From contig NZ_LT607751.1 in the NCBI RefSeq assembly GCF_900090305.1, positions 4,464,001-4,528,000 on the forward strand: a DNA stretch of 64,000 bases, in the 5' to 3' direction. The DNA is from Micromonospora siamensis (GTDB lineage Bacteria > Actinomycetota > Actinomycetes > Mycobacteriales > Micromonosporaceae). The translations under genes and the position numbers were made by a program. Under the pieces are notes generated by a model that was not told the origin of the DNA, made no database searches, and saw only the letters and a program-made list of their open reading frames with translations. Shown piece after piece: positions 36,085 through 58,661 of this stretch; the stretch's first letter is position 1, and each line of letters opens with the position of its first letter.

Positions 36085-36094
36085 CGCCGCCTCC

Positions 36095-37492
36095 TCAGCC
36101 GACCCGGGCCGGTGCCCCGGCCGGGGTGTCCTCCTGCGCCACCACCGCCACCGCCGGCAGCCGCGGGGCGCCGAACGCCTTGACGTACGCCACCAGTGGT
36201 TCGGCGGCGAAACGGAACGCCGCCAGGTCGACGAAGCCCCGGTCCCACGCCGCCGCCTCCAGCCCGTCGGCGGCGCAGCCCCACAGCCGGGCGAAGCACG
36301 CGTCGACGACCTCGGTCCGGAAGTGCAGCCGGCCACCCGGCCGGCGGTGACCCGTCGTACGCGGGACGAGGGTCTCGTTCAACGACGCGGCGGTCGCCGC
36401 CACCTGCCGGGCCGCGTCGCACAGCTCGGGGGTGCGCAGCGGCGCCGCGACCATCCACAGCGCCAGGCTGCGGTACGGCGTCGTGCCGAAGGCCCGCACC
36501 AGCACCCGCAGCACCGCCTCGGTGTCGTCGAGCCCGCGTTCACCCTCGGTCAGCCACTCCCGCCCGCCGGGCGGCGCGACGCTCAGTCCACGGCGGTGGG
36601 CCGCCTCGACGGCGCGCTCCTCGACCGCCGGCTCGGCGAGGTCGACCTCGGCCAGCCCGGCCAGGACGCCGCGCCGGTGCCAGGCCGGCGCCTCAGGGTG
36701 CAGCAGCATCAGCACCGCCGCGACGTCCCGTTCGCTGACCCAGTGCCCGCCGGCCGTCGACCCGGCGAACCGGGCCCGCCAGCTGTCGAGGAAGCGGGTG
36801 TGCAGGTTGTCGATGGGCTGGTCGCCGGCGTGCGCCGGGCACAGTTCGGGATCGTCGTCGGCCGCCATGGTCAGCAGCAGCCGGGCATCGACGGTCTTGG
36901 CGTCGAAGGGGTCGTGGCGGTGCCAGGCGAGGAACCGCTGCACCGCCCCGGCCGCCCCGGGCGGCGCGGTGCGCTCCAGCGCCTGGTAGGACCGCCGCCG
37001 GAACGGCAACTCCCGGCAGTGTTCCAGCAGCAGGTCGGCCTCACCGGCGTCGAGGACCCCGGCGTCGACGGCCCGGCGCAGGGCCACCCGGACGTTCACC
37101 AGCGGCTCGCTGAGCGCGCGGTGGCCGTACTCGGCGGGCCCGTGCACGACCGCCACCTCGTCGTCGCCGGTGACCACCCCGTCGCGGTAGAGCCGGAACA
37201 CCTCGCCCACCCCGCGCATCCCGAACGGCCACAGCTCGGCGGCGCGCAGCGCGCCCATGCTGCCCGCGCCGGCGACGGTCACGCCCCGGTCGAGCAGGTC
37301 GAGGATCTCCCGGTGCCGTACCGGCGGGTGCTGGAGGAAGAAACCGTCGACGATCAGCACCCGGTCGCCGGGGCCGACGTCGAGGCGGAGCAGGTCGCCG
37401 TGCGCCACCGGGGGCAGCACCACCGCATCGGGCAGCAGCCGGTCGACCTCGTCCGTGGGCAGGCTCGGGCCGATGAACACGACGTCAGTCAC
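36095..37492 (-). CDS. TfuA-like protein
   Basis: A 465-residue protein whose N-terminal about 200 residues carry TfuA-family features: FIGPSLPTDEV, VDGFFLQHPPVRHREIL, the signature GVTVAGAGSMGALRAAEL, FGMRGVGEVFRLY and GDDEVAVVHGP. TfuA proteins partner YcaO enzymes in backbone thioamide formation, for example thioviridamide-type RiPPs and thioglycine in methyl-CoM reductase, probably by handling the sulfur donor. The remaining about 260 residues are an additional helical region I cannot assign, so the protein is longer than minimal TfuAs. The GTG start at 37492 lies inside the end of the YcaO gene (8-bp overlap), strongly implying joint translation. Confidence 0.88.
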   Translation of the reverse strand: MTDVVFIGPSLPTDEVDRLLPDAVVLPPVAHGDLLRLDVGPGDRVLIVDGFFLQHPPVRHREILDLLDRGVTVAGAGSMGALRAAELWPFGMRGVGEVFRLYRDGVVTGDDEVAVVHGPAEYGHRALSEPLVNVRVALRRAVDAGVLDAGEADLLLEHCRELPFRRRSYQALERTAPPGAAGAVQRFLAWHRHDPFDAKTVDARLLLTMAADDDPELCPAHAGDQPIDNLHTRFLDSWRARFAGSTAGGHWVSERDVAAVLMLLHPEAPAWHRRGVLAGLAEVDLAEPAVEERAVEAAHRRGLSVAPPGGREWLTEGERGLDDTEAVLRVLVRAFGTTPYRSLALWMVAAPLRTPELCDAARQVAATAASLNETLVPRTTGHRRPGGRLHFRTEVVDACFARLWGCAADGLEAAAWDRGFVDLAAFRFAAEPLVAYVKAFGAPRLPAVAVVAQEDTPAGAPARVG

Positions 37493-38651
37493 GGGGCACT
37501 CCCGGTCGGGTGCTCAGGGCCCGCTCGTCGAACATGCGCAGGCCGGGGGCGAAGACCTTGCTCACCGCAATGCCGATGTCGTCGTGGGTCAGGTCGACGG
37601 CGAACGGCTCGACCCCGGTGATCCGCTGTACCCGGGTGGCCAGCTCGCGCAGCACCTGGCCGACGTCTCCGGCGGGCGGCGGGTCCCGGCGGACCGGCCC
37701 GAGCGGCCGGTCCACGGTGGGCGGCGGCACCGGCGGCGCGGCGACGTCGTGGTACGCCGTGGCGTCGATGTCGTCGCGCGCCCCGGAGACCATGACCAGG
37801 CGCGACTGCGCCGCCTCGGACATGGCCCGACCGACGGCGATCTCCGGATCCACGTGGCAGCCGAACCCACCGAAGGTCACGGGCAGGTCGGGCGACCAGA
37901 TCGATGCGGCGTAGCAGGGCACGCCGACGGCGTTGGTGATGTCGCAGACCTCTACCCAGCAGCCGGCCCGCAGCAGCGCCTCGTGCACGGTGCGGGTCAT
38001 CGCGTTGGTGGCGGTGGCCGGGTCGGTGTAGGTGCGCGCGTCCAGCGGCGAGGTGCAGTACGGCGCGATGCAGTCGCGCTCGACCACCTCCAGCAGGGCG
38101 TGCAGGCTCGCCTCGGCGAACGTGTTCCCGGTGGCCAGACCGTTGCTGCTGGGGGTGAAGAGGGCGCGGTCCCAGCCCCGCCGGACGGTGAAGTCGAGTT
38201 CGATGGTGCCCCGGGGCACCAGGCACGGCTCACCGGTCACCAGGCCGCGGCCGGCCACCCAGTCGAGCTGGACGGCCGGGGTCAGCGGGGACCGCTCCGC
38301 CAGGTGCAGCCACCGGACGTCGTACGGCAGGTCGAGCGCCTCGGCCGGGGACCGGACGACGGTCCCCGGCCGAAGGTTCTCGGCGTGCCAGGACTCGATG
38401 CTCTCCATGACCGCGCTGACCCGGGACTGCGTCGCCGTGGCGCCGGTGCCGACACTCACCGCCATGGTGGCGCCGACGGGACGGTAGGCGACGTGCACCG
38501 GCAGACCGATCTCGTCGAGTCGGGTGATGTCGGCGACCCGGGTGATCCGGAACCGCTCGAGCATCCCGCCGACCCGTTCCCAGGTCTGCTCCACGGTGGC
38601 CGTCCGGTAGGTGCCGGAACGGAACGCGATGGTCTCGGTCGTGTCAGTCAT
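37485..38651 (-). CDS. YcaO-domain protein, stand-alone (TfuA-partner type)
   Basis: A 388-residue YcaO enzyme that would use ATP to activate a backbone amide of the precursor. ATP-binding elements are visible: GTGATATQSRVSAVMESIESWHAEN (E-x-x-E-x-x region), SSNGLATGNTFAEASLHALLEVVERD (E-x-x-x-E/R region) and DPEIAVGRAMSEAAQSRL. It has no fused E1-like partner and no Pro-rich C terminus, unlike azoline-forming YcaOs, and it is directly coupled to a TfuA gene. That combination is the hallmark of thioamide-forming systems. It starts 28 bp downstream of the first precursor gene, so precursor, YcaO, TfuA and radical SAM form one transcription unit. Confidence 0.92.
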   Translation of the reverse strand: MTDTTETIAFRSGTYRTATVEQTWERVGGMLERFRITRVADITRLDEIGLPVHVAYRPVGATMAVSVGTGATATQSRVSAVMESIESWHAENLRPGTVVRSPAEALDLPYDVRWLHLAERSPLTPAVQLDWVAGRGLVTGEPCLVPRGTIELDFTVRRGWDRALFTPSSNGLATGNTFAEASLHALLEVVERDCIAPYCTSPLDARTYTDPATATNAMTRTVHEALLRAGCWVEVCDITNAVGVPCYAASIWSPDLPVTFGGFGCHVDPEIAVGRAMSEAAQSRLVMVSGARDDIDATAYHDVAAPPVPPPTVDRPLGPVRRDPPPAGDVGQVLRELATRVQRITGVEPFAVDLTHDDIGIAVSKVFAPGLRMFDERALSTRPGVPRD

Positions 38652-38679
38652 CGAGGCTCCCGGCTGGGGTTGGGGGAAC

Positions 38680-39054
38680 TCAGACGATGAGGACGGCGAT
38701 GACGTTGACGTTGTTGTCCGCCACCGACGCCACACCGCCGGCGACCGTCTCCAGCTCCGCCTCGGTCAACTCGTTGAGATCCACCAGCGGCACCTCGGGC
38801 ACGTGCAGCACGTGCCGGCCGGGCGTGCCGGACCAGTCGGCGACGATCTGCTCCTTGGTGTAGAGGGTGGCGGGCTGGGCCCGGTCCACCTCGACCACGG
38901 CGCCGGGGGCCACGGGCAGGCCGGCCGCCGTCGCGTAACCGGTCGGGTCGGCGAGGAGCCGGTTGAGTTCCTCGTCGCTGCGCCACACGGCGGTGACCAG
39001 CTCCGAGTACTTGGTCACGAACCTCGCACCGAATTCCTGCTCGTCGTTGCTCAT
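38680..39054 (-). CDS. NHLP-leader RiPP precursor with Cys-free core
   Basis: A 124-residue precursor. Residues 1-107 form a nitrile-hydratase-alpha-like leader (EFGARFVTKYSELVTAVWRS, LLADPTGYATAAGL, LYTKEQIVADWS, LHVPEVPLVDLNELTEAELE) that ends in TVAGG, a double-Gly site for the cluster's C39 peptidase. The predicted core is VASVADNNVNVIAVLIV: 17 residues, no Cys, one Ser. The Val/Asn/Ala bias recalls proteusins of the polytheonamide type, and with YcaO, TfuA and a B12 radical SAM protein next door, thioamidation plus C-methylation of backbone or side chains is the natural hypothesis. ATG at 39054 is set by GAAGGA 9 bases upstream. The gene has its own candidate promoter. Confidence 0.88.
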   Translation of the reverse strand: MSNDEQEFGARFVTKYSELVTAVWRSDEELNRLLADPTGYATAAGLPVAPGAVVEVDRAQPATLYTKEQIVADWSGTPGRHVLHVPEVPLVDLNELTEAELETVAGGVASVADNNVNVIAVLIV

Positions 39055-39112
39055 CGTCTGTTCCTTCCGTCGGGGACCGCTGCGGAACTGGCGGGGAATT
39101 GCTGTGGCCAGA

Positions 39113-39142
39113 ACGCTAGAAAGATCTGGATTGGACAATCAA
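39113..39142 (-). promoter_or_regulatory. Promoter with spacer dyad upstream of the Cys-free precursor
   Basis: On the minus strand a -35 TTGATT (39142-39137) is followed after 18 bp by TAGCGT (39118-39113), a TANNNT-type -10. The dyad GATTG-TC-CAATC (39140-39129) overlaps the -35 and spacer. MerR regulators typically bind a dyad within a long spacer, and a MerR-type gene lies 0.8 kb away. The surrounding 60 bp are noticeably AT-richer than the rest of the locus. Confidence 0.5.
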
Positions 39143-39203
39143 GGATTTCGGCGGAGTGCCATCAGAACGTGCCGTGCCGGCCCGGCCGCGGCTGACTTCC
39201 GTG

Positions 39204-39566
39204 TCAGGTGCAGCAGCACGGGCAGCAGCAGGCACAGCTGGAGTCCAGGCCGGCGACCACGCTGTCCAGCTCGTCCTCGGCCAGCTCCGCCTCGGCCACC
39301 GGCAGCAGCGACGGCACGTACAGCAGGAAGGTGCCCGTCGTCGAGGCCGACTGCCACGACTCGACCTGCACCTCCAGGTCGGGGTCGGCGTCGGCGGCCT
39401 CCCGAACGACCCGGACCTCGACCTCGTCGGGGAGCACGAGCCCGTAGCCGGCGAGGAATCCGCGCGGGTCCCGGCCGAGCGCCTGCTCCCTGGCCGGGTC
39501 GGCCCATACGTCGGCGACCAGCCGGCTGTACGCGGCCACGAAGACCGCTCTATCGACAGGTGTCAT
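39204..39566 (-). CDS. NHLP-leader RiPP precursor with seven-Cys core
   Basis: A 120-residue precursor. The leader resembles that of its neighbour (FVAAYSRLVADVWADP, GFLAGYGLVLPDEVEV, FLLYVPSLLPVAEAELAEDE) and ends ELDSVVAG, where a C39 peptidase could cut. The remaining LDSSCACCCPCCCT has seven Cys, two Ser and one Thr in 14 residues; I verified these codons in the DNA. Cys/Ser/Thr blocks of this kind are substrates for azoline-forming YcaO systems with SagB-type oxidation to thiazoles or oxazoles, and both enzymes are encoded at 46.8-50.6 kb. It lies 149 bp upstream of the Cys-free precursor on the same strand. The start follows CAGGGG/GGAGCAGGGG purine-rich sequence. Confidence 0.88.
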   Translation of the reverse strand: MTPVDRAVFVAAYSRLVADVWADPAREQALGRDPRGFLAGYGLVLPDEVEVRVVREAADADPDLEVQVESWQSASTTGTFLLYVPSLLPVAEAELAEDELDSVVAGLDSSCACCCPCCCT

Positions 39567-39936
39567 CGCCCCTGCTCCCTCGGGGAAGGTCGACCGCCCG
39601 CGGTGGGGCGGTGACGGCGGCGGGCGGCCGGATCGTTCCGACCACCGGTTCGCGTCTCATGCTCGACCACCCCGGGACGCCGGCCGACCGGCCGGCCGGA
39701 ATTTCATCGAATGTGGCCGAGAAACGGTCGCGGCGCGGCGCAAGCGGAGTAAACGGCAATCATCACCTTCGACGGAACGGCGGATTCTAATGACATTTAA
39801 CACTGTGGACAAGTAGTAATTCCTCGCCTGTCACCCGACCGGTTCCCGCCCATACGCTGCGACCAGCGCACCGCCCACCACCGCAGCGGTGGGCGGGATG
39901 TCGCGTCCCCGTCGCCGAGCGCTGCCGGAGGCCACC
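39567..39936. promoter_or_regulatory. Divergent regulatory region between precursor and MerR gene
   Basis: No gene is visible in this 370-bp gap. Its centre (39700-39830) is AT-richer than the flanks. On the plus strand ATGACA (39790-39795) and TAGTAA (39814-39819), separated by 18 bp, form a plausible promoter for the MerR gene. A leftward promoter for the Cys-rich precursor should also lie here, but I could not single one out. The MerR start is supported by GGAGG at 39927-39931, five bases before GTG. Confidence 0.45.
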
Positions 39937-40692
39937 GTGACCATCGACGAGATGACGACCGTGGCGGCGACGCCCGGCGGCACCGCCGGCTACACCGTCG
40001 AGGAGCTCGCCCGCAAGGTCGGCATGTCGGCGCGCAACATCCGCGCCCACCAGGCCCGACGGCTGCTGCCACCGCCCGTTCGGCGCGGCCGGGTCGCGCT
40101 CTACGACGACTCCCACGTCCGCCGGCTGGACGCGATCCTGGCCCTGCAACGGCAGGGATTCAACCTCGTCTCCATCGAGGCGATGCTCGGGGCCCGCAGC
40201 GGCGACGAGGTGCCCGACAGGTTGACCGCCATGCTGCAACGGCTGGCCACCGACCGGCCGGCGCTCGCCCACGCCCTGACCCGGCACGGGGTGATCGGGC
40301 GGTCCGCCGACGGCACCGTCCGCACCGTCCGGCCCCGCCCGCTGCGCGCCGCGTTGGAACTGCACCGGGTACGGATGGGCACGGTGCCGGCGCTGCAGAC
40401 CCTCAGCGAGGTGCTGGACAGCCTCCGGCCGGTCGCCGACGAGCTGGTGGCCGCCGTCACCGCCCGGATGCTGGCCCTGGCGCCCGAGGTGGCGCACGGC
40501 GGATCCCGCTCCTCCTGGTCGGACCTCGACCGGGAGACACTGATGCTGACCCAGGGCGTGGTCGGCCTGCTGACCGAGGCGTTCCGGCTCGCCGTGGAGA
40601 ACCAGGCGGAGGCACACGTCGCCGAGCTGCTGGAGAACCACCTCGACACGGGTCTGTGTCTGGAGGACAGCTCCGTCATCGACAACGGCTGA
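39937..40692 (+). CDS. MerR-family transcriptional regulator
   Basis: A 251-residue DNA-binding protein. The winged helix-turn-helix is at about 15-85: YTVEELARKVGMSARNIRAHQ, LLPPPVRRGRVALYDDSHVRRLDAILALQRQGFNLVSIEAML. The C-terminal 160 residues are an uncharacterised helical effector or dimerisation region with no Cys-based metal site. It is the only plus-strand gene inside the minus-strand RiPP block, lying between the precursor genes and the transporter genes, so local control of the precursors is likely. The start is GTG at 39937 with a good GGAGG; an ATG at 39898 in frame is weaker. A hairpin terminator follows the stop. Confidence 0.85.
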   Translation: MTIDEMTTVAATPGGTAGYTVEELARKVGMSARNIRAHQARRLLPPPVRRGRVALYDDSHVRRLDAILALQRQGFNLVSIEAMLGARSGDEVPDRLTAMLQRLATDRPALAHALTRHGVIGRSADGTVRTVRPRPLRAALELHRVRMGTVPALQTLSEVLDSLRPVADELVAAVTARMLALAPEVAHGGSRSSWSDLDRETLMLTQGVVGLLTEAFRLAVENQAEAHVAELLENHLDTGLCLEDSSVIDNG

Positions 40693-40698
40693 CCCCAC

Positions 40699-40725
40699 CG
40701 CGGGAGGCGCGGAGCGCCTCCCGCG
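40699..40725. terminator. Hairpin terminator between convergent MerR and ABC transporter genes
   Basis: CGCGGGAGGCGC and GCGCCTCCCGCG form a perfect 12-bp stem around the three-base loop GGA. It lies 6 bp after the MerR stop and 10 bp before the end of the oppositely oriented ABC transporter gene, so it can end transcription from both sides. Confidence 0.85.
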
Positions 40726-40735
40726 CCGTCTCCGG

Positions 40736-43700
40736 TCAGCTCGTCGCCGGTTGACCGTCCGGCTGTGCCACGGCCTCCTCGCCCGACGGCTCCGCCAGCA
40801 ACTGCCGGCGCGCCAACCGGTGGAACAGCCCGTCCGGCTGCTCCATCAGCTCGTCGTAGCTGCCCCGCTGGACGATCCGTCCACCGTCGAGGACCACGAT
40901 GGTGTCCGCGGCGCGGACCGTCGACAGCCGGTGAGCGATGATCACCCGGGTCGCGGCGAGCGCCGCGGTGCTGTGGGTCACCACCTCCTGCGTACGGTTG
41001 TCCAGGGCGCTCGTCGCCTCGTCGAAGAAGATGATCCGGGGCCGGGGCGCCAGCGCCCGGGCGATCAGCACCCGCTGGCGCTGCCCGACCGAGAGCGTCC
41101 CTCCACCGAACGGCACCATCGTGCTCATCCCCATCGGCAACGCCTCCAGGTCGTCGGCGAGGCCGGCCATCCGCGCCGCCTCCCAGACCTGGTCCAGCGG
41201 GAAGCTGCCCGCGCCACAGATGTTGTCCCGGACGGAGCCGGCGAAGAGCTGCCCGTCCTGCAGCACCACCCCGCACTGCCGCCGCACGGCGTGCACATCC
41301 AGCTCGGAGAGGTCCTGGCCGTCGTAGAGCACCGCGCCCTGCTGCTGGCGCTCGAACCCGAGCAGCAGCCGCAGCAGGGTCGACTTCCCGCAGCCGCTCG
41401 GCCCCACGACGGCGACGAACTCGCCGGGGCGTACGTGCAGGTCGATGTCGACGAGCACCGGCGGCTCGTCGGGCTGGTACGCGAAGGTGAGCCGGTGCAG
41501 CGCGATCTCGCCGCTGAGCTCGCCCGGATCGATCCGGTCCGGCCGGGCCTCGGGGTCGGCGCGCAGGATCTCCCGCAGGCTGCCCAGGCGGGGCACCGCC
41601 GCGATCACCTCCACCCCGGCGGACACCAGCACCAGCAGCGCGCCCAGCAGCATCGCGAAGCCGACGTTGAGGACGAAGAAGTCGGCCGGCGTGACCCGCC
41701 CGGCCAGCGGCCCCATCAGCACGGCGAAGAGCACGAGCTGGCCGGCGACCGGCAGTACGGTGGCGAAGGCGACCAGACCTGCCTGGCTCTGCCGGACCCG
41801 TTGCAGGGCCGCCCGGGCCGCCGCGGCCACCTCCGACCAGCGCGCGTGCGCCCGCGCCTCGGCAGCCGCGAGCTTGATCTTGACGATGCCGCCGAGCAGC
41901 TGGTTGGTCAGCGCCGCGGCCCGGTGCTCGGCGCGCAGCGCGACCCGCTGCTGGCTGGCGATGAGCACGGCGAAACCCGCGAAGCCGAGCAGGGTGGCAA
42001 CGACGATCCCCGCCGCCCACCACCCGAGCACCGGCTCGACCACCAGGAGCATCCCCAGCGTCACCACGACCGTCGCCCCCGCCGAGACGATCTGCGGCAG
42101 CAGGGCGCTCAACGCCTCCCCGACGAACGAGATCCCGAGCATCGAGTTGGCGATCTCCCCGCTGCTGCGGCCGGTGAAGTAGCGGGCCGGCAGGCGCATC
42201 AGCCGGTCCCAGATCGCCAGCTGGGCGCCGGACTGCAACCGGCCGTCCAGCCGCAGCAGCCGCAGGTTCTGCACCACCCCGACCAGCCCGGCGACGACCG
42301 CCGCGGCGAGCATCAGGGCCAGGTAGCCGAACAGGCCGTCGACCTGCCCCTGCCGGGCCAACTGGCCGAGAACCTCACCGGTGGCCAGCGGCACCCCGAG
42401 GCCCAGCAGCGCCACGCAGGCGCCGGCGAGGAGCAGGCCCCGCACGTCGGGGACCGCGCCGACCAGCCCGGCCCGCAGCAGGTGACGCATCCGGGCGGTC
42501 GGTGGCAGCGGCGCCTGCACCTGGGTGGCCTCCTCGGCGAACGTCGCCGCCGTCGCCGCGTCGATCGCGGTGCTCGCCCGGGTGTCCGGGTCGACCTGGT
42601 GGTAGCGACGCCGGCGGAACACCAGCGGAACCGCGACGGCGGGCTGCGTTTCCGCACCGACCCGCCATCCCACCAGCGGTCCCAGGTCCCGCCGCCACCA
42701 CCGGTCCGGCAGCGTCACCTCGCGCAGGAAGAGGCTGGACGAGCGGGCCACCGCGTGCACCGCGGTCCGGTCGTCCAGCGGCGTACGCGCGCGGTCCACG
42801 GGCTCGACGACCGGGCTGCCCGTCCCCTCGGTGACCACCCCCACCACCGAGGCCGCCCGCCCGTACCGGTCGAAGCCGGGCTCGGTCTCCGCGACCGGGG
42901 CCGTCTCCCCCGCGCCGATCACGCCGATGGACCGCCGGGCCGCCGCGGCGAGCATCGCGGCGTCGATCTGCCGGCGACGCCGTACGGCGTCCAGCAGCGC
43001 CGCGTCGGTCTCCTCGATCCGGGTCTCCACCATCCGCAGCAGCCGGGACACGTGCTGGTCGACCGCCGACCGGAGCTGGCCGGAGGCGAACAGGTCCGCG
43101 CTGCCGTGGCTCTCCACCACGCAGGTCGACTCGGCCACCACCCAGTCCCGGCCGACCACCAGCAGCAACTCCTGCTCGCCCGACATCTCCGCCGGGCCAC
43201 CGTCGTTGCGCCGCAGCTGGCCGCCGGCGCTGCGCAGCCACCAGGTGCCGCCGGTGGAGGTCAGCGCGCTCCCCTCGGCCAGCGAGATGATCTCCCGCCC
43301 CCGCAGCGTGGACGCGCCCCGGGGAGCCTGCCCGCGTCGCAGCGCGTCGGCCACGCCGACCAGCACCAGGTCGACGGCCTCGACGAGTTCCTGGCCGGCC
43401 CGCGCCAGCCGCGACGCCCCCTCCTCCGCCAACCGGTCCAGGCGGGCGTGCCGTTCCAGCACCGACAGCTGGTCGCGGGAGAGCCCGCGCAGCTCGGTGC
43501 CGGGAAGCGGCACCAGGATCAACTGCCAGGCACCGATCACGGTGGACGTCGGCACCAGGCCGCCGGCGGGGAGCCGCGCCACGTGGTGCCGGCGCGACGG
43601 GCTCAGCCCGGCCCGACGCACCGCGAACAGGTCCGCCTCACCGCCGGTGACCAACCATCCGGCCACCGGACCGTCCAGGCGACAGGCCTGGCGTACGCCG

Positions 43701-43756
43701 TCGCCGCAGAGGGCGATCAGGCCGCCGGCCGGGGCGCCCTCCAGCGGGTTGCTCAT
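40736..43756 (-). CDS. NHLM-type bacteriocin export ABC transporter, permease/ATPase subunit
   Basis: A 1006-residue transporter. The first about 430 residues are a cytoplasmic region typical of this subfamily, without a C39 protease. A six-helix ABC exporter domain (about 440-730) follows, then the nucleotide-binding domain with Walker A GPSGCGKST, signature LSVGQRQR, Walker B ARALAPRPRIIFFDEATS and the H-loop HRLS. In NHLM systems this protein accompanies a separate peptidase-containing ABC protein and an HlyD-like protein, as here. It starts 23 bp after the C39 transporter gene and has GGAGGAG before its ATG. It is probably the last gene of the transcript running from about 51.7 kb. Confidence 0.93.
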   Translation of the reverse strand: MSNPLEGAPAGGLIALCGDGVRQACRLDGPVAGWLVTGGEADLFAVRRAGLSPSRRHHVARLPAGGLVPTSTVIGAWQLILVPLPGTELRGLSRDQLSVLERHARLDRLAEEGASRLARAGQELVEAVDLVLVGVADALRRGQAPRGASTLRGREIISLAEGSALTSTGGTWWLRSAGGQLRRNDGGPAEMSGEQELLLVVGRDWVVAESTCVVESHGSADLFASGQLRSAVDQHVSRLLRMVETRIEETDAALLDAVRRRRQIDAAMLAAAARRSIGVIGAGETAPVAETEPGFDRYGRAASVVGVVTEGTGSPVVEPVDRARTPLDDRTAVHAVARSSSLFLREVTLPDRWWRRDLGPLVGWRVGAETQPAVAVPLVFRRRRYHQVDPDTRASTAIDAATAATFAEEATQVQAPLPPTARMRHLLRAGLVGAVPDVRGLLLAGACVALLGLGVPLATGEVLGQLARQGQVDGLFGYLALMLAAAVVAGLVGVVQNLRLLRLDGRLQSGAQLAIWDRLMRLPARYFTGRSSGEIANSMLGISFVGEALSALLPQIVSAGATVVVTLGMLLVVEPVLGWWAAGIVVATLLGFAGFAVLIASQQRVALRAEHRAAALTNQLLGGIVKIKLAAAEARAHARWSEVAAAARAALQRVRQSQAGLVAFATVLPVAGQLVLFAVLMGPLAGRVTPADFFVLNVGFAMLLGALLVLVSAGVEVIAAVPRLGSLREILRADPEARPDRIDPGELSGEIALHRLTFAYQPDEPPVLVDIDLHVRPGEFVAVVGPSGCGKSTLLRLLLGFERQQQGAVLYDGQDLSELDVHAVRRQCGVVLQDGQLFAGSVRDNICGAGSFPLDQVWEAARMAGLADDLEALPMGMSTMVPFGGGTLSVGQRQRVLIARALAPRPRIIFFDEATSALDNRTQEVVTHSTAALAATRVIIAHRLSTVRAADTIVVLDGGRIVQRGSYDELMEQPDGLFHRLARRQLLAEPSGEEAVAQPDGQPATS

Positions 43757-43779
43757 GGCCTCTCCTCCGGTTGTGGTGG

Positions 43780-45957
43780 TCAGTGGTCCCGGACCAGGCG
43801 CGCGTACGCCCCGTCCCGGGCGACCAGTTGGTCATGGGTGCCACGCTCCACCTCACGGCCCCCGTCGAGCACGACGATCAGGTCGCAGTCGCGGACCGTG
43901 GACAGGCGGTGCGCCACGATCAGGCAGGTCGCCCCCCGCCGTCGCAGGTGCAGGTCGATCAGCCGTTCGGTCTCGGCGTCCAGTGCGCTGGTCGCCTCGT
44001 CCAACACCAGCACCCGGGGATTGCGGACCAGCGCCCGGGCGATCTCCAGCCGCTGCCGCTGCCCGCCGGAGAAGTTGCGGCCGTTCTCGCGTACCGGGCT
44101 GGCCAGGCCGCCCGGGCGGGAGGCGACCTCGCCGTGCAGGCACGCGTCGCTCAGCGCGGTCACCACGTCCTCGTCGGGGACGGTCAGGTCCCACATCGTG
44201 ACGTTGTCCCGGACCGTGCCCTCGAACAGCCGTTGGTCCTGGTCGACCATGGCGACCGTGGCCGCCCAGAGGCCGTCGTCGGCCTCCGCGCGTTCGGCCC
44301 CGTCGACGGAGATCCGGCCGCTCCACGGGCGGTACAGTCCGGCGACCAGCCGGCCCACCGTCGACTTGCCGCTGCCCGAACGACCGACCAGCGCCACCCG
44401 CGCGCCCGGGGGCAGGTCGAGGCTGAAATTCTCCAGCAACGGCCGACCCAGCGGGTTGTAGCCGAAGGTGACCTCCTCGATGCGCAGGTGCCCCTCCATG
44501 GGGGCCAGCGACCGGGGTTGCGGCGCGTCCTCCGCGGGCAGCGGATAGCGCTCCACGTCGCGCAGCCGGTTGAGGTCGGCACTCATGTCCTGCAACCGGG
44601 AGCCCAACGCGGTCAGGTTGCCCAGCGGCCGGTTCATCGCCGCCGCCAGACCCTGCATGCCGACCAGCACGCCGACGCTCATCGCCTCCGCGACCACCCG
44701 CCGACTGCCCACACCCAGCAGCACCGCCGTCGTCCCGGCGGCGAGGAACGCGGGCAGCACCGAAAGCACCGCGGTCGGCACCCCCAGCCGCTGCTGACGG
44801 CTCGCGACGGTGGCGTGGCGGGCCGCGAAGCGCGCCACCGCACGTTCCTCCTCGCCACCGGCCTTCACCGTCTCGATCATCTGGACGGTGGTGTACACGG
44901 TGGTCACGAGTTTGCTGCGGTCCGCCTGGAGACCAGCCACGGCCGTCGACCGGGTCGACGCGACGTAGCGCAGCACGCTCACGTTCAACCCGGCCAGCAC
45001 CACCGCGCACAGGCCCAGCACCAGGTCGTACTGGCACAGCAGGGCGCCGTACGCCAGCACCAGCGCGGTGTCCACGACGGTGGTGGCCGCGCGGCGGGTG
45101 AGCACCTCGGCGACCATGTCGTTGCCGCGCACCCGCTGGCTCAGGTCGGCGGCCTGGCGTTGGTCGAAGAAGGTCGGTGGCAGGCGCAGCAGATGTCGGA
45201 AGAAGCGGGCGGCGCTGGCCAGCGCGAGGGCGGTCTCCGCCCGTACGGTCAGCCGTTGCTGGAGCAGGCTGGCCAGGAAGGTCAGCACGGTGGCCACCGC
45301 CACCGCCGCGACCAGCCCGGCGAACGCGCCCCGGTCCTCCTGCAGCAGCACCCGGTCGACGAAAACCCGGGCCATCACCGGAATGGTCAGACCGACGACG
45401 GCGATCAGCAGGCCCAGCAGCAGCACCTGCGCGATCGCCGACCCGGGACCGCGCCACCGCTGCGCCAGCGCCCGGAGCATCCGGTAGCGGGCGCCGCCCG
45501 GACTGAACTGCGGGCCGGGTTTCATGGTGAGCACGATGCCGGTGAAGGCGCCGTCGAACTCCTCCCAGCTCACCGCCCGGGGACCGGTGGCCGGATCGTT
45601 GATGAAGACCTTGCGCCCGAGGCCCTCCAGCACCACGAAGTGCTCGAAGCGCCAGAACAGCACCGCCGGCAGCGCCACGCCGGACAGCCCGTTCAGGTCC
45701 ATCTGGAAGCCCTTGGCCTCCATGCCGTACCGGCGGGCGCCCTTGAGGACGGTGGCCGCGGTGGAGCCGTCGCGGCTGACGCCGCAGACCCGGCGCAGTT
45801 CCTCCAGCGGCACGTGCCGTCCGTGGTGGCCGAGCACGATGCCCAGCGCGGCGGCGCCGCACTCCACCGCCTCCATCTGGATCAGGGTGGGGGTACGGAC
45901 CCGGCGACGTCGGATCCTGGGCAGCTCCGCCGAGGCGGTCGCGGTGGGCGCGCTCAT
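43780..45957 (-). CDS. C39 peptidase-containing ABC transporter (NHLM type)
   Basis: A 725-residue membrane protein that would remove leader peptides at GG/AG sites and export the mature product. The N-terminal C39 protease has the expected triad: Cys33 (MEAVECGAAALG), His106 (WRFEHFVVLEG) and Asp121 (VFINDPATG). A six-helix exporter domain (about 170-450) and an ATPase domain follow, with Walker A GRSGSGKST, signature FSGGQRQR, Walker B PRVLVLDEATS and H-loop HRLS. The ATG overlaps the stop of the HlyD-like gene (ATGA). Both NHLP precursors carry suitable cleavage sites, so it can process both. Confidence 0.95.
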   Translation of the reverse strand: MSAPTATASAELPRIRRRRVRTPTLIQMEAVECGAAALGIVLGHHGRHVPLEELRRVCGVSRDGSTAATVLKGARRYGMEAKGFQMDLNGLSGVALPAVLFWRFEHFVVLEGLGRKVFINDPATGPRAVSWEEFDGAFTGIVLTMKPGPQFSPGGARYRMLRALAQRWRGPGSAIAQVLLLGLLIAVVGLTIPVMARVFVDRVLLQEDRGAFAGLVAAVAVATVLTFLASLLQQRLTVRAETALALASAARFFRHLLRLPPTFFDQRQAADLSQRVRGNDMVAEVLTRRAATTVVDTALVLAYGALLCQYDLVLGLCAVVLAGLNVSVLRYVASTRSTAVAGLQADRSKLVTTVYTTVQMIETVKAGGEEERAVARFAARHATVASRQQRLGVPTAVLSVLPAFLAAGTTAVLLGVGSRRVVAEAMSVGVLVGMQGLAAAMNRPLGNLTALGSRLQDMSADLNRLRDVERYPLPAEDAPQPRSLAPMEGHLRIEEVTFGYNPLGRPLLENFSLDLPPGARVALVGRSGSGKSTVGRLVAGLYRPWSGRISVDGAERAEADDGLWAATVAMVDQDQRLFEGTVRDNVTMWDLTVPDEDVVTALSDACLHGEVASRPGGLASPVRENGRNFSGGQRQRLEIARALVRNPRVLVLDEATSALDAETERLIDLHLRRRGATCLIVAHRLSTVRDCDLIVVLDGGREVERGTHDQLVARDGAYARLVRDH

Positions 45958-46763
45958 CGCCGCAGCAACCAGTCGATCGGGTGCTCCCGGTCCACGGTGA
46001 ACCAGGCGGTGACCTCACTGGCCGAGTTGAGCTGGAACGGCGGTGGGGACTTGCTCCACCGCAGCCCACCCGGGGCGGCCGGGTCGACCTGCAGCGACAC
46101 CGTCACCCGGACCACGCTGCCGTGCGCGAGCAGCCGCCGGACGTCCTGGCCGGCCCCGAGGAACGCGCGCAGCGACGCCTCGGTCTCGGGGAAGGCGCCC
46201 ACCTCGGTCACCTGGCCGGCGAGGGTGCCGAACACGTTGCGGGGCGCCGCCGCGGCGGCCACCTCCACGGTGACCCCCGGTTGCAGCAGCGGCGCGGCGA
46301 CGGCGGGGGCGTAGACGACGGCCTGCAACGCGTCCCCCGCCGTGTCGAGCCGCTCCAGGTCGGCCAGGTGGCTGCCCGGGGTGACGATCTCTCCCTCGGA
46401 GACCAGCCAGGCCACGACGTACGCGTCACCGGGGGCGTTCTCCACGCGGACCCGGCCGTCGGTGGTACGCAGGCTGTACAGGGGTGTGCCCTTGGTGACC
46501 CGCTGGTGCGGCGACGCCCACACCTTGGTCACCTGGCCGCTGTCGAGCGCGTCGAGGGCGGAGATGCCGTTGGAGTGGATCAGCACGCCGGCCGCCTCGA
46601 CCGTCCGGGGCACCACGGTCCGCACCGACCACACACCGGCGGCCACCACCACGATGATCAGCGCGACACTGGCCAGCCAGCTCGGCACGGTGGTCAGCCG
46701 GACGGCGCGGTCCAGTTGTTCGGGGGCCTCGAGTTGACGCAGCGCCTGCCGTCGGAACTTCAC
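45954..46763 (-). CDS. HlyD-like secretion protein of the NHLM export system
   Basis: A 269-residue single-pass membrane protein: a cytoplasmic N terminus with a Gln/Leu-rich segment (FRRQALRQLEAPEQLDRAVRL), one membrane helix (about 28-50) and an extracytoplasmic barrel/lipoyl-like domain (DSGQVTKVWASPHQRVTKGTPLYSLRT). NHLM clusters use such proteins as partner of the two ABC subunits. The GTG start overlaps the SagB gene stop (GTGA), and its stop overlaps the next ATG, so all three are coupled. The frame is open far upstream but only inside the SagB gene. Confidence 0.9.
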   Translation of the reverse strand: MKFRRQALRQLEAPEQLDRAVRLTTVPSWLASVALIIVVVAAGVWSVRTVVPRTVEAAGVLIHSNGISALDALDSGQVTKVWASPHQRVTKGTPLYSLRTTDGRVRVENAPGDAYVVAWLVSEGEIVTPGSHLADLERLDTAGDALQAVVYAPAVAAPLLQPGVTVEVAAAAAPRNVFGTLAGQVTEVGAFPETEASLRAFLGAGQDVRRLLAHGSVVRVTVSLQVDPAAPGGLRWSKSPPPFQLNSASEVTAWFTVDREHPIDWLLRR

Positions 46764-48220
46764 GACCCGTCCACCCCCCGCACCGAACCGGCCCGCGCGG
46801 CGCCGAGCAGGAAGTCGGCCACGCTCGGCTCGACCAGCGGATCGATCCCGGACAGCTCGGCGAAGGCGTGCGAATCCCCGGCCCCGAGGGCGCAGGGGGC
46901 GAGGCCCATCGCGGTGGCGACCAGGTACATCTGGTGGGTCAGCACTCCGGCGTCCTTGAGAATCATCGCGTAGCTCATCCCTTCGTACTTCCACATCAGT
47001 CGCTGCACGCGGGCGGTGACCACCAGGACCGTCTGCGGCAGCCGGGGCATGGCCCCGGCGGCCCGCGCGTACCCGAGCAGCCGGTCGGCAGCCGGGCCCC
47101 AGCCGGCGACCGGCTCCAGCCGGTGCTCGACCGGGTCGTAGTGGTAGAGCCCCCGGTCGAGCCCGGAGCAGCGCGCGACCAGCGGATAGATCTCCAGTTC
47201 GTAGACCCCGCCGCCGCCCGGGTAGGGCCGGTGCCCGACCTCCTGCCCGCCCGCCTCGCCGGCCACGGTGGTGTGCTGCGACCGGTACAGGAACTCCGCC
47301 AGCCGTTCCCGGGTCAGCGGGTCCGCGTCGTCGTGCTCGCGCACGCTGCGCCGATCCGCGACGACCTGACCGAACGGCGGGTCGGCCTTGACGACGGTGG
47401 CCAGGTCCGGCAGCGGCAGCTCGATCGCCCGGTCGCCGTCGTAGCGGCGGCGCAGCGGCTGCGGTGGGAACCGGTCGCGCAGCCGGTAGGTGCCGCCGAC
47501 CGGCAGGACGTGCCACCCGGCGCGGGAACGCTGGTGCAGCCGCAGTTCCTCGGGTGACCAGTACGCCAGCGGCGCCTGCTCGTGTTCCGCCTCGTGCTCC
47601 GCCCCGGTCACCAGGATCCGCGCCGTGACCAGCTCGTCGAGCACCCGCGCGGCGGCCTCCGGGCCGACGGCGAGGGTACGGGCGACCGCCTCAACCCCGA
47701 CGCCCCGGGCGGCGGCGGCCAGCACGGCGGCCAGCACGGCGTCGACGCAACCGACCGTGAGCGTGCTCAACGACGACGCGGCGACGAGCCGGTCCCGCTC
47801 GGGCCGTAGGGCGACGAACCGGGACAGCCGGTACGACACGTCCGGGGTGTGCGTACGGGTCTCCGGCAGGCTGCCCCGGCCGAGTCCGGTGGGCAGCAGG
47901 TCGAGCAGCGGCCGGTCGCCGACCTGGACCCGGCGGTCCAGCCAGGAGTGCGCGACGAGCCGCCGCAGCAGCAGCTGGGCCGGCAGGACCCGGTTCTCCC
48001 CCTCCAGGCCCATCACCAGCCGGCCCACCTCCACGTCGCTGACCCAGCCGGCGGCCAGCCGCAGCAGCAGCGCCCGGCGGCCCATGCCCGGCTGCTCCAG
48101 GGCGAGCTGGAAGCGGGTCTGCCGCAGGCTCAACGACCCGTCCTCGCCGTGGCGCAGCTCCGCGTCACGGCGCAGCCGGTACAGCTCCTGCACCGGCGGG
48201 CCGGTCAGCGCGCCGCTCAC
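46760..48220 (-). CDS. SagB-type FMN-dependent azoline dehydrogenase
   Basis: A 486-residue enzyme that oxidises thiazolines and oxazolines to thiazoles and oxazoles. The C-terminal nitroreductase-fold half contains RRSVREHDDADPLTRERLAEFLY, the SagB/ThcOx-type YPGGGGVYELEIYPLV block, LYHYDPVEHRLEPV and MYLVATAMGLAPCALG. The N-terminal about 250 residues form the extra domain common in SagB proteins. It lies between the fused E1-like/YcaO protein and the export genes, consistent with an azole-forming RiPP pathway acting on the seven-Cys precursor. The start is GTG at 48220, supported by GGAGG about six bases upstream. The stop overlaps the HlyD-like gene. Confidence 0.92.
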   Translation of the reverse strand: MSGALTGPPVQELYRLRRDAELRHGEDGSLSLRQTRFQLALEQPGMGRRALLLRLAAGWVSDVEVGRLVMGLEGENRVLPAQLLLRRLVAHSWLDRRVQVGDRPLLDLLPTGLGRGSLPETRTHTPDVSYRLSRFVALRPERDRLVAASSLSTLTVGCVDAVLAAVLAAAARGVGVEAVARTLAVGPEAAARVLDELVTARILVTGAEHEAEHEQAPLAYWSPEELRLHQRSRAGWHVLPVGGTYRLRDRFPPQPLRRRYDGDRAIELPLPDLATVVKADPPFGQVVADRRSVREHDDADPLTRERLAEFLYRSQHTTVAGEAGGQEVGHRPYPGGGGVYELEIYPLVARCSGLDRGLYHYDPVEHRLEPVAGWGPAADRLLGYARAAGAMPRLPQTVLVVTARVQRLMWKYEGMSYAMILKDAGVLTHQMYLVATAMGLAPCALGAGDSHAFAELSGIDPLVEPSVADFLLGAARAGSVRGVDGS

Positions 48221-48302
48221 GGCGCCCTCCGGCCGACCGGATCCACCATCGTGGTCATCGGCACATCCCTCCCCCGATCCCGGCCCGCGCCGGGACCGGC
48301 GG

Positions 48303-50579
48303 CTAGAAGAAGACGTTCAGCGGATTGGCCGACGTCTCGTCGGCGGCCAGCGGCCCACGGCCGAGCCGCCGCGGCACCTCCCACAACCGGCCGGGGCCCA
48401 GCCGCCGCCAGAAGTGGCGCAGCCCCGGCACCACGACCTTCACCACCGCCAGGTCGATGTCCGGTCGGGACTGGTCGACGACGATCACCTCCAGGCCGGC
48501 CTGCTCGGCCCGACGTACGCACTCGCGCACGTCGTCACCGACGTCGCCGGTGGTCGACGACGGATGGTCCGTGAGGGTGCGCGCCGGCCGGGTCGGGTCC
48601 GGGGTCAGCCAGGGCTGCTCGGCGACCCGTACCGTGCCGAACCAGCGGGCGCTGTCCGGGTCGTCGATGCCGTACCGGTTGCGGCCGGAGGTGGGGCCGG
48701 GCACGGCGGGCAGGAACTGGTTCACCTCGGTGAGCGCCCGGGTCAGCGCGACGCGGGCGTCCAGGTGCGCGCCGAAGCCGACCAGCACGTCCTCCGCCGG
48801 GCCGCCGGTGCGCCGGGACACCGCGGCGAACGCGGGCACACCGAGGTCGGCGGTGAGGTCGAGGGCCCACAGCTCGCGGCCGAGGGCGGTGGCGTGGTGG
48901 TCGACGCAGGCGGCCAGCCACGGGTCGGCGAACGAGGCGAGGTCCACGCCGGGCAGCCGGGAGCGGTGGTACCACCACAGGGCCACGCTGTCGCGCTCGA
49001 CGAGTTCGCAGAAGCCCTGCAGGATCGCCTCGGCGACGGTACCGCCGGCGGCGCAGCCGTTCGAGTCGGCCGAGCACACGCCCAGCCCGGTCAGCTCCGG
49101 GTGCCCGTACCAGCAGTAGGCGGCGGGCAGCTCGCGGGTGGTCTGGCGGGTCAGCGACCAGCCCGTGGTCCAGTCCAGCTCCACGTCGTCGTCCAGCGGG
49201 CGGGGCACCCGGTGCAGGTGGCCGAGGTCGGCGTTGAGCCGGTCCCGGTCGGCGTACTGCCGGTCGGAGAAGAGCAGCAGCTCGCGCAGGTGCACCGCCC
49301 GGTCCGGCCCGAGCTGCCGGTACGTCGCCCGGTGCACCGGTCGGTCGCCGCGCCACACCCCGCAGTAGCGCTCCACCGCCTCCCCGATGGCGCTCATCCG
49401 GGCCTGCAGGTCGGTACGGCCCTTGCCGCCGCTCTGGCCCCGCAGGTTGCGGCGCAGGCCGGACACCTGCCGGGGCTGGGCGAAGTTGTGTCCCGCCGAG
49501 TAGGTGTGGGTGATCCCGTTGTCGGTCGCCTCCAGCGGGGTCAACCGGCTCACCACGCCCAGGTAGCGGCTGACGTGGTGGGCCAGCGACGCGTACCTCT
49601 CGGCGGGGTCCCGGGTGCGGGAGTCGCCGGCCCGGCTGGGCTGCGCGCCGCTGGGCGGCAGCTCGATCCGCGGGTCGGCCTTGCCGACCAGGTCCGGGTC
49701 GCCGCAGGCGGGGCACTGCGGTTGGCGTACCAGGTGGTGGCTCTCCATGCTCAGGTCGCGGGTGTCGAGGGCGACCATCCGGCCGGTGAGCCGCGGTGAC
49801 TCACCGCGCAGGGCGAGCACCGCCAGTTCGGTGGCGAGCAGCCCGGCGACGACGGTCGCCAGTCCCGGCAGCACCGCCCGGTCGGGCTGCGGCACCGGGC
49901 CGGGCAGATCCTGACCACCGAGGAAGGCGTTCACCTGCTCGTTGTCCTGCCAGCGTTGCCGCAGGCAGGCCCAGCAGCCGGTCCGGCCCGGCATCAGGTG
50001 CGGTCCGACCAGGAGGACGTTGCCGTGCGGCCGGGCCAGTGTCCACGGGCGTCCGGTGGCCAGGTGACGGGCGTTGAGCCGGGCCAGCCCGGGGTCCAGC
50101 ATGGACGACGGCAGCACCAGGACGGGGTCGGCGGCCCGCTCGGGCGGCGGGTCGTCCGGCCCGACGACCGTCACGGTGAGCCCCAGGGCCCGCAGCGCGG
50201 CGGCGGTCTCGGTGACCCGGGGGGCACCCAGGTCCACCATGGTGACCGCGCCTCCGGCCAGCCACCGGCTGCCGGCCCCGGGCGGGACACCCCGGGCGTC
50301 CCAGCCAGCGGCCTCGGCCGCCGGGGTGCCGGCCGGACCGGACACCAGCAGGCCGTGGCCCCGCAGCCGGGCCAACGCGGCGGCCACCGCGGCGACCGGG
50401 TGCCGGTCCGCCAGCCGGGCCAGCACGTCGGACAGCGGGGCGACGCCGTCGAGCAGGTCGGCCAGGTCGGCCGCCACCGGGTCGTCGACGAGCAGGCTGC
50501 GGGTCTCACCGAGGACGACGAGCGGGCCGTCGGGCAACCGCACCGGCACGTAGTCCGAGCGGAAACGCGGATGCCACAT
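48303..50579 (-). CDS. Fused E1-like leader-binding protein / YcaO azoline cyclodehydratase
   Basis: A 758-residue TOMM cyclodehydratase. Residues 1-85 look like a winged-helix leader-recognition domain. The E1-like region (about 85-330) carries paired CxxC zinc motifs (GCWACLRQRW and QCPACGDPDL). The C-terminal YcaO half has the ATP-binding blocks ARMSAIGEAVERYCGVWRG, SNGCAAGGTVAEAILQGFCELVERDSVALWW and VALTRALTEVNQFLPA, and ends in NPLNVFF. It would convert Cys, Ser and Thr of a bound precursor into azolines using ATP. It differs clearly from the stand-alone YcaO at 37.5-38.7 kb, giving the locus two YcaO types. It is followed by the SagB gene after 82 bp. Confidence 0.94.
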   Translation of the reverse strand: MWHPRFRSDYVPVRLPDGPLVVLGETRSLLVDDPVAADLADLLDGVAPLSDVLARLADRHPVAAVAAALARLRGHGLLVSGPAGTPAAEAAGWDARGVPPGAGSRWLAGGAVTMVDLGAPRVTETAAALRALGLTVTVVGPDDPPPERAADPVLVLPSSMLDPGLARLNARHLATGRPWTLARPHGNVLLVGPHLMPGRTGCWACLRQRWQDNEQVNAFLGGQDLPGPVPQPDRAVLPGLATVVAGLLATELAVLALRGESPRLTGRMVALDTRDLSMESHHLVRQPQCPACGDPDLVGKADPRIELPPSGAQPSRAGDSRTRDPAERYASLAHHVSRYLGVVSRLTPLEATDNGITHTYSAGHNFAQPRQVSGLRRNLRGQSGGKGRTDLQARMSAIGEAVERYCGVWRGDRPVHRATYRQLGPDRAVHLRELLLFSDRQYADRDRLNADLGHLHRVPRPLDDDVELDWTTGWSLTRQTTRELPAAYCWYGHPELTGLGVCSADSNGCAAGGTVAEAILQGFCELVERDSVALWWYHRSRLPGVDLASFADPWLAACVDHHATALGRELWALDLTADLGVPAFAAVSRRTGGPAEDVLVGFGAHLDARVALTRALTEVNQFLPAVPGPTSGRNRYGIDDPDSARWFGTVRVAEQPWLTPDPTRPARTLTDHPSSTTGDVGDDVRECVRRAEQAGLEVIVVDQSRPDIDLAVVKVVVPGLRHFWRRLGPGRLWEVPRRLGRGPLAADETSANPLNVFF

Positions 50580-57886: not shown

Positions 57887-58416
57887 GAACGGGCCTCGCT
57901 CTCCTGCAGCAGCTGGTCCAGCCCGCGTACGGTGGACACCTCGAACAGGTCCACCATTCGAATACGGATCCCCAGGTCGGTGCTGATCCTCGCCGCCAGC
58001 ATCATCGCGTCGACCGACCGGCCGCCGAGACCGAAGAAGTCGTCGTCGATGCCGACCCGCGGCACCCGCAGGATCTCGGCGAACAGGTCGCAGAGAATGT
58101 CCTGGCGGGTGGTCTCCGGGGCTTCGTAGCTGGCCAGTCCGCTGAGGTCGGGCAGGGGCAACGCCTGCGTGTCCGGCAGTCCTGCCGCCGTCGCGGGAAT
58201 CGTGTCGGTCACCACGATCGCCGCCGGGACCAGATGGCGTGGCAGGTGTTTCCGCGCGTGTGCGTGCAGCGCGGCCTGGTCGATGTCCGCAGGTGAGACG
58301 TAGGCGATGAGACAGGGGCTCACCTGCGTGGTCGCATGCCTCGTGAGTAGCACGGCGTCCAGGTCCGCGAATTCCGCCAGAGCGGCCCGGACCTTCTGGA
58401 TCTCTGGGTCGTTCAT
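57883..58416 (-). CDS. Carrier protein with an adenylation C-terminal stub
   Basis: A 177-residue protein. Residues 1-90 resemble only the small C-terminal subdomain of an A domain (IQKVRAALAEFADLDAVLL, LIAYVSPADIDQAALHAHARKHLPRHLVPAAIVVTD), with no ATP-binding core. Residues 100-175 form a PCP with the attachment site FFGLGGRSVDAM, where Arg replaces the usual His or Asp before Ser. It must be loaded by an A domain in trans. An in-frame GTG at 58515 with GGAGG in front is a good alternative start and would add 33 residues beginning VSIVGEDPRSGG. The stop overlaps the C-domain gene. A 15-bp-stem hairpin separates it from the SRPBCC gene upstream. Confidence 0.82.
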   Translation of the reverse strand: MNDPEIQKVRAALAEFADLDAVLLTRHATTQVSPCLIAYVSPADIDQAALHAHARKHLPRHLVPAAIVVTDTIPATAAGLPDTQALPLPDLSGLASYEAPETTRQDILCDLFAEILRVPRVGIDDDFFGLGGRSVDAMMLAARISTDLGIRIRMVDLFEVSTVRGLDQLLQESEARS

Positions 58417-58554
58417 ACCCGCCTCACCCGATTCGCTACGTGTCGTTGACATCATCTGCGGCTGGCCGAACAGTAGAAGGCCGCCGGACCGGGGGTCTTC
58501 TCCGACGATGCTCACGTGCCTCCGCCTCCGGGCGGGCCGTACGCAGGCCTGAAC

Positions 58555-58595: not shown

Positions 58596-58661
58596 GGGCC
58601 ACACACGTCGTTCCCGCGGGGTTCGCCGGCAGATCAACCGACCCGCACGGCAGGCTGCCCG

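Follow-up and report, generated by a model that had tools for sequence, protein, structure and literature searches.

A conserved Micromonospora locus with two related RiPP precursors and two distinct YcaO systems, putatively of azole and thioamide type

Gene content of the locus

We analysed a 64,000-nucleotide stretch (hereafter the window) of the 6.25 Mb single-contig genome of Micromonospora siamensis, in which a locus for ribosomally synthesised and post-translationally modified peptides (RiPPs) combines two precursor genes with two different YcaO systems (Table 1). Throughout, preC denotes the precursor with the Cys core, preN the precursor with the Asn/hydrophobic core, and rSAM the gene for a putative B12-binding/radical S-adenosylmethionine (SAM) enzyme. 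On the minus strand the genes run in the order E1-YcaO, SagB, HlyD, ABC1, ABC2, preC, preN, YcaO, TfuA and rSAM, forming two transcription units with a plus-strand MerR gene between them (between ABC2 and preC); the NHLM export genes span 40736-46778. A first-pass annotation had described 36095..50579 as one RiPP locus with two NHLP-type precursors 149 bp apart, one core lacking Cys and the other holding seven Cys in 14 residues, a stand-alone YcaO with TfuA, a fused E1-YcaO with SagB, and one NHLM export set, all of which the sequence and its translations bear out. Its gene coordinates are likewise right, but the span is too short, as rSAM and a lipoprotein-like gene lie outside it, and the inventory overlooked these two genes as well as MerR, all three of which are conserved with the block.

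Table 1. Features of the RiPP block in the window, with the evidence for each assignment.
Feature	Coordinates	Strand	Evidence and remarks
Putative B12-binding/radical SAM enzyme, probable methyltransferase (rSAM)	33955..36087	-	PF04055 54.8 bits (over cut-off); PF02310 32.0 bits (cut-off 32.1)
TfuA (residues 1-216) with helical C-terminal extension	36095..37492	-	
Stand-alone YcaO, putatively of thioamide type	37485..38651	-	TIGR00702 over cut-off
preN	38680..39054	-	124 aa; leader homologous to that of preC; predicted cleavage after VAGG; core VASVADNNVNVIAVLIV
preC	39204..39566	-	120 aa; NHLP-type leader; predicted cleavage after VVAG; core LDSSCACCCPCCCT
Divergent MerR/preC intergenic region	39567..39888	.	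conserved AATTACTACTTGTC stretch; promoter-like site 39812-39784
MerR-family regulator, divergent from precursor operon	39889..40692	+	PF13411 57.4 bits
Second NHLM ABC transporter subunit (ABC2)	40736..43756	-	TIGR03797 676.6 bits (cut-off 709.4)
NHLM ABC transporter (ABC1) with C39-type peptidase domain (putative leader cleavage after GG/AG, export)	43780..45957	-	TIGR03796 902.2 bits (over cut-off 853.3)
NHLM HlyD-like secretion protein	45954..46778	-	TIGR03794 134 bits (cut-off 156.2)
SagB-family FMN dehydrogenase (putative azoline to azole, or another oxidation)	46760..48220	-	TIGR03605 153 bits (over cut-off); ThcOx domain
Fused E1-like/YcaO cyclodehydratase (putative azoline former; E1-YcaO)	48303..50579	-	TIGR03604 and TIGR03882 over cut-off
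Lipoprotein-like secreted protein (by eye)	50721..51737	-	no Pfam family; upstream of E1-YcaO

The two YcaO systems

The fused protein scores 266.6 bits against TIGR03604 (cut-off 219.25) and 119.8 bits against TIGR03882 (cut-off 36.9), and its best relatives of solved structure are LynD, TruD and MusD. An E1-like leader-binding domain joined to a SagD-type YcaO, as found here, is the arrangement that defines cyclodehydratases of the thiazole/oxazole-modified microcin and linear azol(in)e-containing peptide (TOMM/LAP) kind, and the composition of the preC core would suit a Cys/Ser/Thr-rich substrate for azol(in)e formation. At the N-terminus of the fused protein a PqqD match reaches 15.1 bits, below the cut-off of 23.4.

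The stand-alone YcaO scores higher against methan_mark_1 (176.9 bits) than against SagD (111.4 bits), each under its own cut-off, and its best solved relative is MJ1094. A stand-alone YcaO adjacent to a TfuA-domain protein is the gene pair by which TfuA-YcaO systems are recognised, and suggests an oxygen-to-sulphur exchange in a backbone amide. The rSAM protein adds to its domain matches (Table 1) a weak match to TokK, 92.9 bits against PhpK (below cut-off), and 77.8 bits against rSAM_ocin_1 (TIGR03975), a family of B12-dependent radical SAM C-methyltransferases of RiPP pathways whose cut-off is 281.85. Its cluster motif CYWNKCTFC (C329, C334, C337) has the spacing C-x4-C-x2-C, invariant in 12 aligned sequences; the usual radical SAM spacing is C-x3-C-x2-C.

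We also looked for a RiPP recognition element in the C-terminal parts of both partner proteins. In TfuA there is no Pfam match and the structural model of this part is helical, the fold comparison spanning residues 1-223; in rSAM the last ~90 residues look PqqD-like by eye, Pfam finds nothing, and the model there has predicted local distance difference test (pLDDT) values mostly of 25-50.

The two precursor peptides

Both precursors lie in frames with a coding signature, the GC content at third and second codon positions (GC3 and GC2) being 0.93 vs 0.50 for preC and 0.88 vs 0.45 for the frame that holds preN. The two are homologous (blastp E 1e-9 in a single comparison, with 35/103 residues or 34% identical; 99.3% in a profile comparison), yet despite their homologous leaders the cores are entirely different. 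The first-pass description of both leaders as NHLP type stands in a broader sense only: neither reaches the leader_NHLP (TIGR03793) cut-off of 50.9 bits (preC 36.4, preN 16.3), but a long leader related to nitrile hydratase (NHase), a double-glycine-type site and an adjoining NHLM exporter, with NHLM_micro_ABC1 over cut-off, are all present. For preC itself the leader_NHLP and NHase matches are weak and below cut-off, and preN is tied to the leader type through its homology to preC; among family members, 20 of 21 for preC and 9 of 22 for preN match leader_NHLP at E ≤ 0.001.

Protein database families at E ≤ 1e-3 comprise 99 members for preC and 72 for preN, from which the alignments omit P0016, P0066, P0094, P0098 and P0099 (preC) and P0171 (preN). 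The motif CCCPCC is present in 93 of the 94 aligned preC-family members. When the sequences are thinned at 80% leader identity, those of preC (59 of 94) show a mean pairwise identity of 0.81 in the core vs 0.55 in the leader, and those of preN (41 of 71) 0.24 vs 0.51. Core evolution runs in opposite directions: the preC core is near-frozen across genera and the preN core is variable.

All 41 preN cores from 37 loci carrying both precursors (dual loci, see below) plus genome G487 contain Asn. In the 27 Micromonospora loci the preN core never contains Cys and has Ser or Thr in only three, so that by its chemistry alone it is a poor azole substrate. preC is single in every dual locus; three of the 37 (L162, L163 and L168) have two preN copies, with differing cores, behind it (in L162, VSETKVNIIVACVVNA and VSDVNVVIVACVVVA).

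Co-inheritance of the block in related genomes

The genome samples searched comprised 397 from the order, 350 from the family and 345 from the class, with 11-13 first-look candidates scored per genome. Of 101 related genomes, 22 have a TfuA relative, which in 14 (the window's own included) is 76-100% identical, and the other 13 of these 14 all carry the block; the 12 named loci whose YcaO is 91-96% identical to that of the window are all from Micromonospora. A precursor profile, which also detects preN alone, matched 42 of the 350 family genomes: 27 Micromonospora and 10 others with full-length preC, one with a truncated match (G587), one with preN only (G487), and three weak matches (G054, G516, G620). 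Setting aside G587 (locus L172), in which the preC match is cut at residue 76 near a contig end, every assessable preC locus (37/37) carries both precursors, both YcaO types, TfuA, rSAM, SagB and the export genes, with ABC2 of L167 cut by a contig end.

The E1-YcaO and YcaO trees are correlated (Mantel r 0.958, n = 36, 0 of 999 permutations as high), also within Micromonospora (r 0.88); this comparison covers 36 of the 37 dual loci, the fetched stretch of L140 ending before its E1-YcaO, which was later found in L223. None of the 27 Micromonospora loci has lost either half, and in 4 of the 10 loci from other genera (L167, L169, L170 and L171) the azole/export operon is inverted with respect to the precursor operon, with both halves kept. 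The comparison of homologous neighbourhoods proposed in the first-pass annotation finds both sets together in the dual loci, and the independent inheritance of precursors or enzyme sets that it named as contrary evidence is not seen within the bacterial family (37/37 co-occurrence, Mantel r 0.96). The block is a stable co-inherited unit.

Half-clusters and the assignment of enzymes to precursors

Loci that hold one half of the block allow each core type to be set against the enzymes that accompany it. A Cys-rich core is accompanied by E1-YcaO in 43 of 43 loci, and the single locus without such a core lacks E1-YcaO; the Asn/hydrophobic core is accompanied by YcaO, TfuA and rSAM in 38 of 38 loci, and in 6 of 6 loci without it YcaO and TfuA do not adjoin the precursor, counts that come from related genomes with few independent events and are not phylogenetically independent. 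They exclude G054, G516, G620, G079 and G176 (weak precursor matches, other families) and G801 (locus L210).

On the azole side, six genomes of other families (G131, G750, G939, G782, G913 and G934) have a precursor belonging to the same superfamily, with a Cys-rich core (e.g. CCCCPCCCCT), and an E1-type YcaO within ~13 kb, with no neighbouring TfuA. G131 and G782 have their Cys core or cores, one YcaO (of E1 type) and no TfuA genome-wide; in the other four, TfuA is present only on other contigs. In a YcaO tree built from a chosen subset of loci, in which the E1-YcaO of G939 is not included, those of the dual loci form one clade (support 1.0) adjoining G131, G750, G913 and G934 (support 0.895), with G782 further off. 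On the thioamide side, G487 (locus L173) has preN, YcaO, TfuA, rSAM, MerR, SagB and NHLM genes, and neither a Cys precursor nor an E1-YcaO in the ~50 kb read; its YcaO, the only one in the genome, branches at the base of the thioamide clade (support 1.0). No further half-cluster was found in its genus (1/4 genomes). Though they reflect few independent events, these patterns support enzyme sets that would each be matched to one precursor.

Other arrangements were seen alongside these. The azole-only locus L139 (9378-10526) has two different Cys-rich precursors side by side, with cores DINCCCCPCCCCT and GIWDPYCCSCCPSCCSASGSG; L141, L174 and L175 are other E1-YcaO/SagB loci whose precursors end in SCPGACVGMSA or similar, another precursor family in the same bacterial family; and the window's own genome has a third YcaO (L219, 8980-9939) that is not close to either block type.

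Export, regulation and flanking genes

The ECGAA motif of ABC1 is kept in all seven sequences compared. MerR is seen in 36 of the 37 dual loci, the contig of L167 ending before it, and the lipoprotein-like gene also in 36 of 37, the contig of L038 ending first; the latter has no match in the half-cluster stretches fetched, and its product is a possible candidate for an immunity protein. The AATTACTACTTGTC motif of the intergenic region was picked by eye in an alignment of the 27 Micromonospora loci. By eye, too, the gap between preC and preN (39055-39203) shows conserved TTGATT...TAGCGT-like bases, and preN could have its own promoter there. Genes of nonribosomal peptide synthetase type (condensation, AMP-binding and PP-binding domains) flank the block on both sides, at window positions 19459-27990 and 56492-63991.

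Interpretation

We favour, with a probability of about 0.6, the reading that the block makes two products, each precursor being matched to one enzyme set, with leader cleavage and export shared. E1-YcaO would bind the preC leader and cyclodehydrate up to seven core Cys, and SagB would oxidise the rings to thiazoles, yielding a near-invariant polythiazole peptide. YcaO-TfuA would install one or more backbone thioamides in the preN core, which is variable and rich in Asn, Ile and Val, perhaps on the conserved Asn or beside it, and the rSAM enzyme would C-methylate that core, so that the preN product is probably C-methylated. For both precursors, leader removal after GG/AG would fall to the C39 domain of ABC1 and secretion of the peptide to the NHLM exporter. 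This is the dual-product reading of the first-pass annotation, and it fits the association counts and the 37 dual loci best, but it is carried over only in part: it lacked rSAM, SagB does not follow the precursor split, and the leader motifs do not discriminate.

Several observations weigh against a strict division of labour, in addition to the relatedness of the genomes counted. The preC gene shares an apparent operon with YcaO-TfuA and stands outside the azole operon. L(X)4L precedes the cleavage site in 86 of 94 preC-family and 68 of 69 preN-family members (strict count; 2 of the 71 preN members lack a recognisable site), so the leaders are not told apart by this motif, which the accessible text of PMC12455567 reports as needed for YcaO recognition of an NHLP. 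Cys is found in 9 of the 13 preN copies of the 10 dual loci outside Micromonospora, where the argument from poor azole substrates is weaker. In G487, a single locus, the rSAM gene changes frame (possibly decay or an assembly error), and the genome-wide precursor search scored 12 of 111 candidates, the absence of preC resting mainly on the ~50 kb read. SagB is kept there despite the missing E1-YcaO, and L210 (1385-10286) combines an NHLP-type precursor ending VAGLSHPALSDIAR with MerR, SagB, HlyD, ABC1 and ABC2 genes at 47-66% identity, no YcaO being seen in the fetched stretch, which raises the question of whether its SagB and NHLM genes may be used without azole formation; in view of these two cases, SagB does not track the precursor split. 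Nor is rSAM exclusive to one side: the azole-only locus L213 has a weak rSAM match (31%, 50 bits), and inspection by eye shows a further rSAM-like frame in L139. Finally, on a 5.5-kb contig (L041, 2534-5396), a YcaO-TfuA pair stands beside a precursor ending SYASSSCCYVATKAA that looks thiopeptide-like by eye. The YcaO of this pair is nested in the dual clade as sister to L162/L163 (support 0.998), and the pair has possibly been transferred between RiPP classes.

What the two peptides would do together is a separate matter. They may be independent compounds that merely share an exporter, their linkage reflecting a compact cluster without joint function, which is compatible with two matched products and is a serious candidate that we hold somewhat short of an even chance. 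Half-clusters exist on both sides, and the two precursors differ in constancy, preN having a variable core and a second copy in 3 of 37 loci, preC an unvarying core and one copy only, as independent compounds would allow; set against this, no half has been lost in the 27 Micromonospora loci, though the profile would reveal loci with preN only, and the linkage outlasts the inversion of one operon. Tentatively, we also consider an obligate two-component RiPP possible, in which two peptides would be exported and act together, a constant polythiazole serving as the common partner and a variable Asn/Ile/Val peptide, thioamidated and C-methylated, as the one that sets specificity; the evidence that points to such a pair is the co-inheritance.

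It is unlikely, in our judgement, that the Cys core is a substrate of both YcaO systems and yields an azole-thioamide hybrid like thiopeptin or saalfelduracin, with preN as an additional substrate of the thioamide set. The first-pass annotation had offered both systems acting on both precursors as its alternative, and the part of it that places the thioamide set on the Cys core is kept alive by L041, as well as by the operon in which preC sits and by thiopeptides thioamidated by TfuA-YcaO, which the accessible text of PMC8120280 names. However, six Cys-core loci lack a neighbouring TfuA, two of them any TfuA in the genome, and none of the scanned block proteins was recognised as a LanB-type dehydratase or a cycloaddition enzyme.

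MerR regulators often sense metals or oxidants, and the presence of one in the block, together with a core almost invariant across genera, which is unusual for a competitive toxin, could suggest that the Cys-core peptide binds metal, acts as a signal or regulates the system, and is not an azole antibiotic. We regard this as improbable, given that E1-YcaO is found with every Cys core (43/43 loci) and that the double-glycine-type site and peptidase-domain NHLM exporter point to a secreted, modified peptide. The chance abutment of two unrelated clusters, which the division into two transcription units on either side of a regulator might suggest, is rejected, as the same block recurs in 37/37 assessable loci of three genera with correlated gene trees.

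If two matched products are indeed made, the block is a compact natural test of how two related leaders are routed to two YcaO chemistries in one cell, with the half-clusters as natural knock-outs for comparison. The predicted products, a constant polythiazole and an Asn-rich thioamide candidate, have expected masses that follow from the genes, and ordinary strains would serve to test them, the block being present in no fewer than 37 of the genomes sampled from the family.

Comparison with known systems

The proposed logic resembles that of lacticin 3147 and haloduracin, in which two precursors have dedicated LanMs and one shared LanT, and for which synergy is proven; those two-peptide lanthipeptides differ from the block in their lanthionine chemistry, leaders and enzymes, where azole and thioamide chemistry would operate here. 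Two classes of thioamidated RiPP were considered and set aside. Thioamide thiopeptides of the thiopeptin type are defined by clusters that encode LanB-like dehydratases together with a [4+2] enzyme, and neither enzyme class was found among the scanned block proteins; thioamitides of the thioviridamide type are defined by a core ending in a Cys used for aminovinyl-methylcysteine (AviMeCys), and the window's preN core has no Cys.

We found no publication that describes the paired block or its Cys core, in a search that had supplements and most subscription journals outside its range, and CACCCPCC, CCCCPCCCC and CCCPCCCT were not found in the published paper text searched. The first-pass annotation knew of no characterised cluster with this combination, which our search bears out for the paired-precursor block but not for azole- and TfuA-type YcaOs together, as these are in print in the accessible parts of PMC8120280 and PMC10676384. 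The TfuA clusters of Malit 2021 (PMC8120280) have, like the block, a fused cyclodehydratase-YcaO and a dehydrogenase beside YcaO-TfuA, with one remark on a B12-dependent radical SAM enzyme in other clusters; the second YcaO is discussed there as acting further on the peptide once thioamidated, in many cases alongside split lanthipeptide dehydratases, and the accessible text has no paired matched precursors. The dehydrazole clusters of PMC10676384 share NHLP-type leaders and two YcaOs with the block and differ by LanMbC. In the Nakamurella example the second YcaO adjoins TfuA, with one precursor described in the accessible text where the block has two, and the Candidatus Thioglobus cluster has two YcaO/dehydrogenase pairs, not azole plus TfuA, with several precursors; for the latter that text raises the possibility of a separate precursor for each YcaO.

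Among systems for which one YcaO type is described, the Network 7 TfuA clusters (Santos-Aberturas 2019, PMC6511847) likewise combine actinobacterial TfuA-YcaO with precursors bearing a nitrile hydratase domain, and, unlike for the block, the accessible text mentions neither an azole set nor a second core type. In the std cluster, according to the accessible text of PMC13174530, YcaO-TfuA thioamidates an Asn backbone amide; the precursor differs from preN, a multinuclear non-haem iron-dependent oxidative enzyme (MNIO) and a carbamoyltransferase are present, and that text mentions no second YcaO. MprC/MprD/MprE (PMC12455567) combine, as here, a YcaO cyclodehydratase and an FMN oxidase acting on NHLP precursors with L(X)4L, with a single YcaO and, in the accessible text, no TfuA or thioamide. 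Clusters of azole YcaO with TfuA-YcaO, and NHase-type precursors beside TfuA, are already in print, and the block is a variation on known RiPP chemistry.

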